Of a stretch of 45,701 bases of DNA, positions 39,473-45,242 are shown in pieces. The stretch spans positions 1 to 45,701 of the forward strand of contig CALFWL010000055.1 in the NCBI GenBank assembly GCA_937928215.1, written 5' to 3'. This DNA comes from an uncultured Pirellulaceae bacterium (GTDB lineage: Bacteria; Planctomycetota; Planctomycetia; Pirellulales; Pirellulaceae). Below the pieces are notes generated by a model. It was not told where the DNA came from, did no database searches, and saw only the letters and a list, made by a program, of their open reading frames with translations. Within the stretch, counting starts at the first letter, position 1, and the number at the start of each line of letters is the position of its first letter. The position numbers were made by a program, and so were the translations under genes.

Positions 39473-40852
39473 ATGGAAACGGCAGACGCGATGTCCAAAT
39501 CAGAGTCAGGTAATCAACCGCTTGCTCGATCACCAGCACTTCGATTGCAGTTGGAAGCAGCCGGGTTGGCGGGTTCATGTGTGGATCTGAATGCCCTGTC
39601 CTGCCCCGCGTTTGCGGGCGCGGCAGACAAGTTTGACACCGGATTTTGCTGGTGCCCGCACCCGTTGCCGCTAGGAAAGTCGGTCCATTTGGCAAGTTCT
39701 CGTTTGAGCCAGCAGCTGGAGTCATTTCCGGCGTGGTTTGATGCCTTGCGAACGTTTGGTTGTTCGGTCAAATCGGACCAGCTGTTTCTGATTACCGCAC
39801 AAGGCACAACGGCTGATCGTTTTGTGAATCGAATTGGGGAGCTGTTCGGGATTCCGGTGGTCAGTATCAAACGATTTCCGAACCGAGTGACCGGGGCGTG
39901 GATCGAGCGCCAGAAGAAGCTTTCCGAGGAATCCCCTGAATGGACTCAGACGATGTGGATTGAGCCGGCGTCAGGCGTTTCGATGGACGCTCTTCTAATT
40001 GCCATCGCTAGTGAAGTACGTGTGCTGCGGGTACGAAACCAAGGCAACGTTCACCGCGCGCTAACCGCGCGACTTGAATCAAGTAGCGGTCGAACGTGGC
40101 TGCTGATTGACTCGTCGCTGACTAGGGCCGATGTGGCTGAGCCATTGATCGATGCAGGAGCAACGAGTTGGTGGTTGTACGACTCGGATGCTCAAGCCGT
40201 TCATGCACCGCCTTCACCGCTTGGGAAACGGGCTCGGGAATCGGTATTCGCCGGTTCAGTGGTTCCGTTGGACCAGGTGGACTCGGTCGATTACGCGATC
40301 CATTGGACTCGTCGAAGGCATGGTGCGTGGCCCGACCAGAGCGATCCGGCTTATCTAGATGACCTGATCTTTCGAAGGGACGCGAGTGACCATCGGGCTC
40401 TTTCTTCGTTGCGAAGAATCTTGATGACTCAGCGTATCATCGCCAGCAATGATCTGACTCGTGCACCGACGCCGGTGGTGTGCTTTGCGGATGTCCTGCT
40501 GACAGAAATTGAAAAGCGGCGCACATTCCGCAATCATCTTGGGCGTTGGGATTTTGAGCCTTACGGAATCGCGATTCGGAAAGACTGCTTGAAAGGTTTG
40601 GGGGCTCGTTCCGTGATCTACGGCGATGACGATGATTGGAATCGGCTGCCCGACCCGGATCGACCTTTTTTTCAGTTGGCAACGGGCAAAGAAAGCAAGC
40701 TCGATTGGCAAACGGAGCGAGAAATCCGTGTGTGTGGGGATCTGTCTTTGAAACAGTTTGGCCCCGACGAAGCGATCGTGTTTGTGCCCTCGAAGGATGA
40801 AGCCGAGTTGGTCGCTCCACTCAGTCGCTGGCCTGTTGTGGTGCTCGGGTGA
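39473..40852 (+). CDS. Protein of unknown function with DUF2971/AbiGi-like C-terminal region
   Basis: I do not recognise the whole protein. The N-terminal half looks alpha/beta (SDQLFLITAQGTTADRFVNRIGELFGIPVVSI; RTWLLIDSSLTRADVAEPLIDAGATSWWLYD), with a cysteine-rich patch near the start (FCWCPHPLPLGKSV). The last 120 residues (VCFADVLLTEIEKRRTFRNHLGRWDFEPYGIAIRKDCL...VIYGDDDDW...DWQTEREIRV...EAIVFVPSKDEAEL) follow a pattern I associate with DUF2971 and AbiGi-type proteins: an early F(A/S)D, a YGIAI strand, and an ERE(I/W)RV motif. That link is from memory. No signal peptide. ATG 39473 touches AAAGG, so ATG 39491 may be the real start. It stands alone between two minus/plus units. Confidence 0.75.
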   Translation: METADAMSKSESGNQPLARSPALRLQLEAAGLAGSCVDLNALSCPAFAGAADKFDTGFCWCPHPLPLGKSVHLASSRLSQQLESFPAWFDALRTFGCSVKSDQLFLITAQGTTADRFVNRIGELFGIPVVSIKRFPNRVTGAWIERQKKLSEESPEWTQTMWIEPASGVSMDALLIAIASEVRVLRVRNQGNVHRALTARLESSSGRTWLLIDSSLTRADVAEPLIDAGATSWWLYDSDAQAVHAPPSPLGKRARESVFAGSVVPLDQVDSVDYAIHWTRRRHGAWPDQSDPAYLDDLIFRRDASDHRALSSLRRILMTQRIIASNDLTRAPTPVVCFADVLLTEIEKRRTFRNHLGRWDFEPYGIAIRKDCLKGLGARSVIYGDDDDWNRLPDPDRPFFQLATGKESKLDWQTEREIRVCGDLSLKQFGPDEAIVFVPSKDEAELVAPLSRWPVVVLG

Positions 40853-41049: not shown

Positions 41050-42624
41050 ATGGACCAAACGTTGCCTTTACAAAACGCACAACCTAAGAAAAACCAACGC
41101 GAGACTCGACGGAAGCACGCGCGGTCGGCTCGTTTGATTGCGGTTTTGTTTGCTTCAATCGGGATTTCGGCCTCGGGTTGCCAGATGGGAATGCTGGCTG
41201 CCAACAAAGAACTACCTGTCCCCGCTGCCCAATTGGAACCGGGGCAATTCGAAACGGTGCGGTACCAAAGTCCGGGCGGTTCGGGATCAAGAAACGCTCC
41301 GACTGCGGGAGGTCTTCGTCGACAGCCTCGCGACGAAGTTTACACACCTGATCCCTGGGAAACGCTGGCTCCTGGAGCCAATGGCGAAGAAATTGATCAG
41401 GCCAACGTGATCATCGACGTGGTGATTCAGGGAAACCAAGCCGTTCAAGAGCATGAAATTCTCGGCATGATCCAGTCTCGGGTCGGTCGCTACTTTGACG
41501 CTGACAAGCTTCAGCGAGATGTGGATCAGTTGTGGCGACTGCCGGAAGTCAATCGAGTCAACGGCCCGTACATCAATCGCAGCGATGATGGCGTGGTGAT
41601 CACGTTTGACATTGTCGAACGCAATGTGATCCGAGAAATTAAATTCGTCGGCAATCGGGGTATTTCAGATCGTGGTCTTCGCAAGAAGGCAGGGTTGGAG
41701 CCCGGTATGCCGTTTAACGCTCATGAAATTCGGATGGCAAAATCGCGACTGGAAGACCTTTACAAGGAAAAGGGATTCCCTCGAACGCAAGTCGAACTTT
41801 CCAACGCAGAAGGTGTTGATCCTTCCACGGTCGTGTTTCTGATCCACGAAGACCAGAAGCAACGGGTTTGGGATGTCGAATTTGAAGGGAACGAAATTGC
41901 TTCGGACGGTCGACTGCGAAGCTTTATCGAGTCCAAGCCAGGCATCGCAAAACTGTTTGGTGGAAACGTCAAACGAGACGAAATCGAGCAAGACGTGCTT
42001 CGTCTGACCAACTACTACCGCAGCCTTGGGTTCTTCAACGCCCGTGTCGGTCGCGAAGTCAGCGAGAGCAACGATGGCAAGTGGGTTACGATTCGTTTTA
42101 TCATCGACGAAGGGCCTCGCTATAAGGTTCGCAACGTCTCTTTCATCGGAAACAAGTCCTACCAAGCCGATCAACTGCTTGGTCTGTTGGAACTGAAGCC
42201 GGGTGAAGAAGATGCTCCCGAGTTTAACTCAACCAAAATGAACAAGGACGTCGTTGCGCTGCAAACGTTGTACGGCAGCGAAGGTTTCGTGTTTGCCACG
42301 GTTCAGGCGGAGCCAAGATTTTTAGAGGAGCCGGGGCTGCTGGACATGGTCTACAAGATTGACGAAGGCGAACAATACCGCGTCGGTCGGATCAATGTTC
42401 ATTTCGAAGGCGACTATGGGATCACCAAACGAGAAGTTGTGTTAAGCCGTCTTGGGCTCAACCCAGGCGACAAGATTGATGCCAACTTAATTCGTAAAGC
42501 CGAAAGTCGGCTTGGGGCATCGCAAATCTTTGCAGGTCGATCGACTCCAGGAGCCCAACCGCCCAAGGTCGTGGTGCGGCCTCCGGAACTGGGTGGAGCT
42601 TCTTCCGGAACGATGCGACGTTAG
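41050..42624 (+). CDS. POTRA-only half of a divided BamA-type outer-membrane assembly factor
   Basis: From ATG 41050 a basic N-terminus (RRKHARSARLIAVLFASIGISASGC) carries a hydrophobic stretch and a lipobox-like Cys44, so this is probably a periplasm-facing lipoprotein. From about residue 115 it is a string of POTRA domains, which fold client barrels: (1) VIIDVVIQGNQAVQEHEILGMI, (2) NVIREIKFVGNRGISDRGLRKKAGLEPG, (3) QRVWDVEFEGNEIASDGRLRSFI, (4) YKVRNVSFIGNKSYQADQLLGLL, (5) YRVGRINVHFEGDYGITKREVVLSRLGLNPGD. The fifth stops after its two helices (RKAESRLGASQIF) and runs into a proline-rich end (GAQPPKVVVRPPELGGASS), with no barrel. The matching last strand is found in the next gene. Confidence 0.9.
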   Translation: MDQTLPLQNAQPKKNQRETRRKHARSARLIAVLFASIGISASGCQMGMLAANKELPVPAAQLEPGQFETVRYQSPGGSGSRNAPTAGGLRRQPRDEVYTPDPWETLAPGANGEEIDQANVIIDVVIQGNQAVQEHEILGMIQSRVGRYFDADKLQRDVDQLWRLPEVNRVNGPYINRSDDGVVITFDIVERNVIREIKFVGNRGISDRGLRKKAGLEPGMPFNAHEIRMAKSRLEDLYKEKGFPRTQVELSNAEGVDPSTVVFLIHEDQKQRVWDVEFEGNEIASDGRLRSFIESKPGIAKLFGGNVKRDEIEQDVLRLTNYYRSLGFFNARVGREVSESNDGKWVTIRFIIDEGPRYKVRNVSFIGNKSYQADQLLGLLELKPGEEDAPEFNSTKMNKDVVALQTLYGSEGFVFATVQAEPRFLEEPGLLDMVYKIDEGEQYRVGRINVHFEGDYGITKREVVLSRLGLNPGDKIDANLIRKAESRLGASQIFAGRSTPGAQPPKVVVRPPELGGASSGTMRR

Positions 42625-42788
42625 GCAGCAGGAAAGTATAAACGACCAATCAGGATACTGGAAACTCGGCAGATGCGCTCCATCGATGGATGGGGTTCAT
42701 TTTGCCACTCGCCTTAACTGGTGAACTGACTGACAGGCCAACAGGACAAAGCGGATGCTGATCCGTTACCGCAGGAAATAAAAGCAAC
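42625..42788. other. Gap between the two halves of the BamA pair
   Basis: The 164-bp gap holds no gene and no clear terminator, so the two genes may be co-transcribed. A purine-rich GCAGGAAAT stretch about 11 bases before ATG 42789 may be the ribosome site. The two genes lie in different frames, so one base of sequencing error would not join them. Confidence 0.4.
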
Positions 42789-44450
42789 ATGCCAAACCTT
42801 ACGGACAACCTGACTTTCGCCGGCCTGCTGACCACAGCGATCGCCATGGTTTTGAATACCGGATGTGCTCACACGATGGGTGACCCCAGCCGTTCGACCG
42901 CGATGGTTCCTGCGTCTGCAAGTCAATACCGTCTTCCGGCCGAAGTAACCGGTCGAGTCACTCCGTCCGCGTTGGCTCATTACCTACCGGATGACTCGCC
43001 GATTGACGTGGAATCAGGGCAGGTGATTTCGGATCAAGTGGTGGCAGATCGCCAGTTCAGCGTGCGAGCCCAAAGCCCCGACCGCGCCAACGGGTTCGGC
43101 TTCCCCGAGCAACCGATTCCTTCGTATACGCCAACCAACCAAAACGCGGCCTACGGCCAATCTTATCAACAGCCGGTCGCGAGTAGCGGAAACGGACAAG
43201 TGGTCGGGCAACAGACCAGCTACCAATACCCTGAACTGGCCACGCCGGGGGGGAGCAGTATTCCCGGCAATGGTTTGCCTTCACCCAATATCGGATCACC
43301 CAACGAATTGAATTCGATTATTCAACCGTTCGAACGAGGCGGCAATGCCGGTTTTCCCAGTGAGTTTCCATCGAACTACGCGGACATCGACGTCTATGTA
43401 ACGGAAACGCAGACAGGCAGCATCAACTTTGGTGGAGCTTACAATAGTGATAACGGGGTGGTCGGTCAGATCATCGTCAATGAAAAGAACTTCGATATCA
43501 CGCGCTTTCCGCGCAGGTTTCGAGACATTGTCGATGGAACCGCGTGGCGTGGAGCCGGTCAGAACTTTCGGCTGGAACTGGTGCCCGGATCGGACATTCA
43601 ACGGTACTTGGTCAGCTTCTCGGAGCCGTACCTGTTTGGCACGAATTACAGTTTCAGTGCCAGCGGATACTTGTTTGACCGCAGGTATTTTGACTGGGAT
43701 GAAAACCGCCTGGGAGGCCGCGTGTCTCTGGGGCGGCGACTGACGCCTGACCTCTCGTTCAGTCTGGGATTGAGAATGGAACGCGTTGAAATTGATAACC
43801 CGCGTAACATGAACTCACCCCAGTTGAATGCGGACTTGGGCAAGAGCAGTTTGTTTCTGGCGAACGCCGGTTTGATCCGCGACACTCGGGACCATCCGTT
43901 CCTTGCGACCGAAGGTTCGTATTTTTCAGCAACCGTCAGCCAAGCATTTGGCGATTACACCTACACTCGCGGTGACATCGATTGGCGAACCTATCGCTTG
44001 ATGTATCAACGTCCGGACGGGTCGGGTCGGCACACCGTCAGCTATGGAACCAAGCTGGGGTTCAGTGGATCGGACACACCCGTGTTTGAGAACTATTTCG
44101 CTGGTGGATTCTCGACCATGCGAGGCTTTGACTTTCGTGGTGTCGGACCCAGCGAAGGTGGCATCCGAATCGGTGGTGAGTTCCAGTGGCTCAACACCGT
44201 TGAGTACAACTTCCCACTGACAGCCGACGACATGGTCAAAGGCGTCGCGTTCTGTGATTTTGGAACCGTGGAAGAGAGTATCGAGATCCAAGGTGACAAC
44301 TTTCGAGTCGCACCCGGCGTCGGCCTGAGGATTTCTGTACCCGGTTTGGGGCTGGGAGCCCCGTTGGCGTTTGACTTCGCGTTTCCAGTCGAAACCGCGA
44401 CCGGGGACGAAGAGAAGGTCTTCAGTTTCTACTTGGGCGCGTTGCGATAG
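42789..44450 (+). CDS. Barrel half of a divided BamA-type outer-membrane protein, with its own lipobox signal
   Basis: A second signal peptide with lipobox (LTFAGLLTTAIAMVLNTGCAH, Cys26) begins this protein. Residues of about 30-195 are low-complexity, rich in Q, N, S, P and G (PTNQNAAYGQSYQQPVASSGNGQVVGQQTSYQYP). At about 198 the sequence resumes as the last strand of POTRA5 and the first barrel strand (YADIDVYVTETQTGSINFGGAYNSDNGVVGQIIVNEKNFD). A full Omp85 16-strand barrel follows, with the conserved loop motif STMRGFDFRGVGP (Arg445) and closing strand EEKVFSFYLGALR ending in an aromatic-containing strand. It should insert outer-membrane proteins together with the POTRA partner just upstream. 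Confidence 0.9.
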   Translation: MPNLTDNLTFAGLLTTAIAMVLNTGCAHTMGDPSRSTAMVPASASQYRLPAEVTGRVTPSALAHYLPDDSPIDVESGQVISDQVVADRQFSVRAQSPDRANGFGFPEQPIPSYTPTNQNAAYGQSYQQPVASSGNGQVVGQQTSYQYPELATPGGSSIPGNGLPSPNIGSPNELNSIIQPFERGGNAGFPSEFPSNYADIDVYVTETQTGSINFGGAYNSDNGVVGQIIVNEKNFDITRFPRRFRDIVDGTAWRGAGQNFRLELVPGSDIQRYLVSFSEPYLFGTNYSFSASGYLFDRRYFDWDENRLGGRVSLGRRLTPDLSFSLGLRMERVEIDNPRNMNSPQLNADLGKSSLFLANAGLIRDTRDHPFLATEGSYFSATVSQAFGDYTYTRGDIDWRTYRLMYQRPDGSGRHTVSYGTKLGFSGSDTPVFENYFAGGFSTMRGFDFRGVGPSEGGIRIGGEFQWLNTVEYNFPLTADDMVKGVAFCDFGTVEESIEIQGDNFRVAPGVGLRISVPGLGLGAPLAFDFAFPVETATGDEEKVFSFYLGALR

Positions 44451-44689: not shown

Positions 44690-44789
44690 TGATGGAACAG
44701 GTGCTCTGAACCGCGCTGCATATCAACACTTTCAGCGACGCGATCGATTACGATAATGATCTTGTCGCTTGTGTCGAAAAGGAAATGTG

Positions 44790-45242
44790 ATGCTCAATCG
44801 GAAACGGCCTGCCTGTGGCGTAAAACATGTCGACGGTCAACCGACCGTTGTGTTCGATACCGTGTGCACCAAAGGCAAACGACCTTGGCTGGCAACTGAG
44901 CAAATGCACGAAATTTTGGTTGGTATCTGGCGTGACCAAGCCACCGCGTGGCTTGTTGGCCGATATATCATCATGCCCGATCACGTTCATTACTTCGCGT
45001 GGGCGACCGAGCGTACGATCCCGTTCGACAATTGGGTGAAATTTTGGAAATCAAAATTTACGTGGGCGCATGGTCAACAAGATAAACGGATGCAAAGAAA
45101 CGACTGGGACCGGCGCATGCGAACAGAATCTCAGTACGAGGAAAAATGGGAGTACATACGACACAACGCATCTCGAGCTGGATTGGTTGAGCATGCTGAC
45201 CAATGGCCGTTTCAGGGAACGGTTTTCAATTTGGATTGGTGA
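44790..45242 (+). CDS. REP-associated tyrosine transposase (RAYT, IS200-like Y1 family)
   Basis: This 150-residue Y1-type protein has the HUH motif MPDHVHYF (His65, His67) and the RAYT-type C-terminus ESQYEEKWEYIRHNASRAGLVEHADQWPFQGTV with candidate catalytic tyrosines 116 and 122. RAYTs act on single-stranded REP palindromes and are usually domesticated, single-copy and flanked by such repeats, exactly the context here. ATG 44790 has AAGGA six bases upstream; the open frame goes back to 44769 (MCRKGNV) with less support. All key residues are present, so activity is plausible. It is unrelated at sequence level to the truncated IS200 tnpA at 2.7 kb apart from the shared fold. Confidence 0.92.
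   Translation: MLNRKRPACGVKHVDGQPTVVFDTVCTKGKRPWLATEQMHEILVGIWRDQATAWLVGRYIIMPDHVHYFAWATERTIPFDNWVKFWKSKFTWAHGQQDKRMQRNDWDRRMRTESQYEEKWEYIRHNASRAGLVEHADQWPFQGTVFNLDW

Follow-up and report, generated by a model that had tools for sequence, protein, structure and literature searches.

A BamA encoded by two genes in Pirellulaceae, divided within POTRA domain 5 and probably reassembled from two exported chains

Results

The window, i.e., the whole analysed stretch of 45,701 nucleotides from an uncultured Pirellulaceae bacterium whose near relatives are Mariniblastus-type Pirellulaceae, carries two genes on the forward strand that lie in different frames, one for a POTRA protein of 524 aa (chain 1; 41050-42624) and one for a barrel protein of 553 aa (chain 2; 42789-44450). 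The ATG of chain 1 is at 41050 and its stop at 42624, in a frame already open from 40987. Pfam recognizes five POTRA stretches on chain 1 (E 2e-54) and Omp85 on chain 2 (E 2e-48). On the 741 positions of the BamA model TIGR03303, chain 1 covers 2-368 and chain 2 covers 384-738, without overlap and with about 15 positions left between them, a near-complete and complementary coverage which argues that the pair is one BamA. Taken alone, the halves score 196 and 162 bits and do not reach the curated cut-off of 297 bits, and the combination of five POTRA domains and an Omp85 barrel is found in the pair and in neither chain by itself. The single polypeptide of other BamA proteins is replaced here by two genes with separate signals, an arrangement conserved in the family. 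The initial annotation, drawn from the letters of the sequence, had read the locus as a BamA divided over two genes in two frames with a 164-bp gap and a cut within POTRA domain 5, and the profile searches and coordinates bear it out.

The intergenic gap (42625-42788, forward strand) holds a weak terminator-like hairpin at 42677-42696; eight terminator-like sites occur in the region against 5.4 expected by chance, and promoter and terminator scans of the region came close to chance level. Immediately upstream of chain 1 lies an ORF of 459 aa (39473-40852, forward strand) with no Pfam match, and a small downstream ORF (44769-45242, forward strand), also without a Pfam match, resembles by eye a REP-associated/Y1 transposase (MPDHVH). 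Neighbouring genes for BAM or lipid A functions, which would have been further evidence, were found neither in the window nor in Blastopirellula. The genome (4.15 Mb, 92% complete) has one PF01103 match, i.e., a single Omp85 barrel, and one POTRA gene; Omp85-barrel and POTRA searches of it returned no second full-length BamA, which answers the question, raised with the initial annotation, of another intact copy. A second match of chain 1 in this genome (C86) was rejected as BamA, being a LysM protein. A search for the YfiO (BamD-type) domain gave weak to moderate matches.

All features of the two chains lie on the forward strand. Chain 1 begins with a signal peptide whose lipobox cysteine (ISASGC, Cys 44) is at 41179-41181, followed by an R.QSP. 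motif (RYQSPG, 41260-41277). POTRA1-4 (41407-42363) have complete beta-alpha-alpha-beta-beta folds, and a POTRA5 portion without beta3 (42370-42588) consists of beta1 (42370-42408), the two helices (42430-42534) and beta2 (PPKVVVRPPE, 42559-42588). In an alignment of 45 POTRA chains the beta2 segment PP.IVVRPPE is conserved behind the helices, and one-piece relatives have the same segment. Since chain 1 retains beta2, the cut sits in the beta2-beta3 loop of POTRA5 and chain 2 provides beta3 only; the initial annotation had rightly placed it inside POTRA5 but directly after the two helices, which is one strand too early. Chain 2 starts with its own lipobox (LNTGC, Cys 26; cysteine at 42864-42866) and continues with a low-complexity linker or tether of about 170 aa (42867-43373), whose counterpart is disordered in the AlphaFold2 model of a one-piece relative and which includes an RAQSPD motif (43065-43082). 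After these residues it reads DIDVYVTETQTG, the last POTRA5 strand and the barrel entry, in which beta3 (DIDVYVTE, 43383-43406) is joined by TQTG to the barrel. The Omp85 barrel (43545-44438) bears the L6 RGF motif as MRGF, with Arg and Gly invariant in 16 relatives. The order of lipobox signal, low-complexity stretch, last POTRA5 strand and barrel is as first described.

Both window chains start with a hydrophobic stretch and a lipobox, called, as throughout this work, by pattern matching and not by SignalP prediction. By the same pattern a barrel-chain lipobox is present in 63 of the 74 named split loci, distributed over the sampled families as 37/41 in f1 (Pirellulaceae), 4/4 in f3, 1/1 in f4, 2/2 in f9, 1/1 in f17 and 0/2 in f5; a POTRA-chain lipobox occurs in 32 of the 74, and 2 of 22 one-piece BamA N-termini have one. 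POTRA-chain lipidation is thus not general. The view that each half has its own export and acylation signal holds by pattern for the window and extends to barrel chains generally, but not to POTRA chains.

In the sampled Pirellulaceae, all loci with both parts visible comprise two genes on one strand with the POTRA gene first. Among the best 80 named loci, 74 are split, one is one-piece and five are incomplete at the thresholds used, and the POTRA gene comes first on the same strand in all 74 split loci; a second one-piece named locus (L198) was seen in a simpler listing. Cultured examples of the split include Blastopirellula marina DSM 3645, Rhodopirellula europaea and R. sallentina, Stieleria, Roseiconus, Neorhodopirellula and Laterigemmans, and the chromosomes CP036526 and CP036432 as well as single-contig Pirellulaceae genomes have the same layout. 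In most of the other Pirellulales families both parts share one frame of about 937-1500 aa, with a linker of 170-460 aa between POTRA5 beta2 and beta3, so that a comparison of relatives for one-piece and two-piece forms divides the order into a split Pirellulaceae and a mostly one-piece remainder. The outgroup f21, another family of the Planctomycetia, is one-piece with a linker of 122-217 aa at the same point, most of the Omp85 frames listed for the sample of the remaining phylum measure about 700-1100 aa, and nearly all other sampled bacteria have a single-chain BamA. Two-gene forms outside Pirellulaceae were found in f3 (four genomes), f4 (one), f5 (two copies in one genome), f9 (two) and f17 (one); the split lineages f4 and f17 rest on draft assemblies, and their barrel chains bear their own signal peptides. 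Six further candidates (G081, G091, G095, G141, G154 and G174) were discarded because their coordinates or sequence stretch indicated a truncation at a contig edge or an incomplete locus. PF01103 had no match in four Pirellulales genomes rated 93-99% complete (G040, G072, G075 and G147), which may reflect a gap, divergence or loss.

A tree was built with IQ-TREE (C20) from concatenated POTRA and barrel regions in 61 rows. On it the split label changes five times (bootstrap 4-6), with at least three changes forced by the starred branches alone, parsimony counts that do not by themselves separate fission from fusion. A single clade of all split forms is rejected (delta lnL 111.7, p-AU 9e-5). The split G098 is nested among one-piece rows of its family f17, and the split G058 (f5) is sister to the one-piece G054 (f19). 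One of 22 one-piece linkers includes a hydrophobic segment that may be a former signal peptide, now buried, and four of the 22 contain a Cys.

The POTRA5 parts on both chains are conserved. Averaged over selected columns picked by hand from the column table, entropy is about 1.4 bits for beta3 in split forms vs about 2.0 in one-piece forms, and in the POTRA5 core of chain 1 about 1.0 bits for beta1 and 0.9 for beta2, rising to about 3 bits just past beta2. All barrel chains read have retained beta3. In an AlphaFold2 model of chain 1 alone (45-row alignment), POTRA1-4 are mostly above pLDDT 90, whereas in POTRA5 the helices form, the beta1 region has pLDDT 66 and no strand, and beta2 is not formed, a result that could partly stem from the alignment or from weak sampling of the domain end. 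In the model of the one-piece L087, by contrast, beta1 (354-363), beta2 (415-418) and beta3 (571-579, pLDDT about 89) all form, the linker (421-566) is disordered and mostly below pLDDT 50, and beta3 runs straight into the first barrel strand. Foldseek matches both models best to E. coli BamA structures.

In 11 Mariniblastus genomes of one clade (L062, L063, L064, L077, L078, L104, L106 and L115-L118), a second barrel gene lies directly downstream, with a single POTRA gene wherever the contig reaches far enough. The second barrel copies group as a single clade with a long stem, which points to one duplication; they retain beta3 (e.g. LDVDVFIPQ), the turn after beta3 differs, and most of them are missing the lipobox. 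Pieces resembling POTRA5 were seen in two other places. The membrane-anchored LysM protein of the window's own genome (L061:1971-3683, reverse strand) includes the piece STREEALSRLGLKPGDKLDASKIR...SIVRPP, 59% identical to chain 1 over alpha1-alpha2-beta2; the copy is more diverged in the G020 homologue, and none is evident in G015, G012 and G009. The barrel chain of G021 (L062:2714-4567, forward strand) has a second copy of POTRA5 alpha2-beta2 after its lipobox, KLDVSQVFAAQGTPGAQPPKIVVRPP, which its sister G004 does not have. A short motif, R[GAYF]QSP[DE], is found repeatedly in a linker that is variable elsewhere (L081-L102, L201-L220); many one-piece forms and many tails of chain 1 have it about 35-40 residues past POTRA5 beta2, and R, G and Q are nearly invariant in 22 one-piece sequences. 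A scan of seven genomes also placed it close to the lipobox of a further lipoprotein (L226, L243) and within additional proteins that appear to be exported. The string RGQSPD was not found in the open-licence PMC papers searched.

Discussion

BamA, the essential insertase of the outer membrane, occurs across Gram-negative bacteria and is regarded as a single chain with tightly coupled parts. With the E. coli type (YaeT/Omp85, TIGR03303) the pair described here has in common the five POTRA domains, the Omp85 barrel with the L6 RGF motif, the domain order and the single copy, and it differs in its two genes and two exported chains, in a POTRA5 shared between them, in the predicted lipidation of the barrel chain, in the long disordered linker and in halves that each stay below the TIGR03303 cut-off. 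The one-piece BamA of other Pirellulales and Planctomycetia (e.g. L087, L083; G205, G226, G316) has the linker at the same site in the POTRA5 beta2-beta3 loop, R.QSPD in most linkers and barrels about 50-56% identical to that of the window, but it is a single polypeptide with an N-terminal signal usually without lipobox and with no second signal. TamL, a lipidated Omp85 protein (NF052279), is likewise a barrel protein with an N-terminal lipid anchor; however, it is one chain, its similarity to the window chains is weak (E 6e-10 and 3e-5), and scores of 38 and 23 bits against its family cut-off of 400 place them outside the family. The TamA and FhaC-type transporters, with three or two POTRAs in one chain, share the barrel of the Omp85 superfamily, and the window chains score more weakly to TamA. 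The pair should work like BamA, yet it departs from the single chain of the BamA family.

We consider it quite probable that the two genes encode the genome's single BamA, that the chains rejoin through POTRA5 and function normally, and that the arrangement goes back to repeated fission in a linker that already existed. Chain 1 would be the periplasmic POTRA arm, and chain 2 the barrel in the outer membrane, with a tether made of an N-terminal lipid, which we infer from the lipobox pattern, and its disordered linker. Beta3, which chain 2 carries adjacent to its first barrel strand, would complete the POTRA5 sheet of chain 1, so that the chains rejoin non-covalently and the pair acts as a normal BamA that inserts beta-barrel proteins. 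Because the cut lies inside one small domain, the halves probably must complete a shared fold to work, as the initial annotation had proposed; the conservation of beta3 and POTRA5, together with the contrast between the AlphaFold2 models of chain 1 alone and of the one-piece L087, is the ground for this proposed donation of beta3, and assembly followed by insertase function is the most likely outcome. It is unlikely, in our estimate, that the chains act apart, chain 2 as an insertase barrel without POTRA domains and chain 1 as a free periplasmic chaperone, with POTRA5 never rebuilt. Such a division would agree with the separate signal on each chain and with the Mariniblastus clade in which two barrel genes have one POTRA gene between them, which indicates that barrels can multiply without POTRA genes, and Omp85 barrels that lack POTRA domains are known. 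If the chains did not rejoin, however, beta3 and the incomplete POTRA5 should decay. Instead, both stay conserved: every barrel chain read has the strand, a POTRA5 fragment without evident use alone, the POTRA5 residues of chain 1 persist in an incomplete domain, and the two genes are always adjacent and in BamA order.

The rejection of a single origin makes repeated fission within one pre-existing linker likely. The simplest reading is that the linker is older and that the gene breaks fall within it, i.e., that fission struck the long disordered linker which would already have been present in the beta2-beta3 loop of one-piece BamA, probably several times in the order Pirellulales and at one spot. 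We infer that the direction of change was fission and not re-fusion. The same two-chain BamA could instead descend from a split ancestral in Pirellulales, the one-piece forms being re-fusions, which would need just the loss of a stop and a signal and would fit a label that changes several times in a direction left unfixed by parsimony. We regard this as improbable, as BamA is one-piece in the outgroup f21 and in the rest of the phylum as sampled, a possible buried signal peptide is limited to a single one-piece linker and a Cys to four, and G098 sits among one-piece rows. An artefact, in which a frameshift or assembly error cuts one gene, would have been conceivable for a window that comes from a single contig of a draft assembly in 247 contigs; it now has practically no probability left and is refuted by the comparative data, since the chains have separate signal peptides and different frames and the layout is the same in complete genomes and isolates. 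Sequencing error had been thought unlikely from the outset, and dozens of relatives whose genomes were sequenced independently, complete ones of cultured strains among them, have the same separate frames. That barrel chains appear to have acquired a lipobox repeatedly, following separate breaks, suggests that it may be useful to anchor the new N-terminus in the membrane.

The tandem loci hint that a single POTRA chain could work with both barrels. We tentatively consider a two-component BamA with a detachable POTRA arm, a possible but rather doubtful extension, in which POTRA5 would be a docking joint, the barrel would donate beta3, and one POTRA subunit would serve more than one barrel. The copies of POTRA5 alpha2-beta2 in the G021 barrel chain and in the LysM protein of the window's own genome (G000) might compete for this joint or regulate it, and R[GAYF]QSP[DE] is a possible docking motif of the planctomycete envelope.

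No description of a split BamA or of BamA gene fission was found in open-licence PMC papers, and our claim to novelty is limited to those. BamA has been listed for planctomycetes, including R. baltica NP_869683.1 (Speth 2012, PMC3422733), and detected in the proteome of T. immobilis (PMC8567305); bamA is essential in P. limnophila, another planctomycete (PMC10632474). BamA hybrids of N. meningitidis and E. coli, with the exchange made at the POTRA5 end, did not function in N. meningitidis (PMC3869937). Searches for a one-gene BamA in planctomycetes, such as that of Speth 2012, may report only one half. The split BamA of Pirellulaceae, a family of free-living bacteria, could offer biochemistry a ready-made two-part BAM, and the family-wide separation of arm and barrel, probably repeated within the order, would be a natural test of which couplings between POTRA5 and the barrel are needed for the insertion of outer-membrane proteins.
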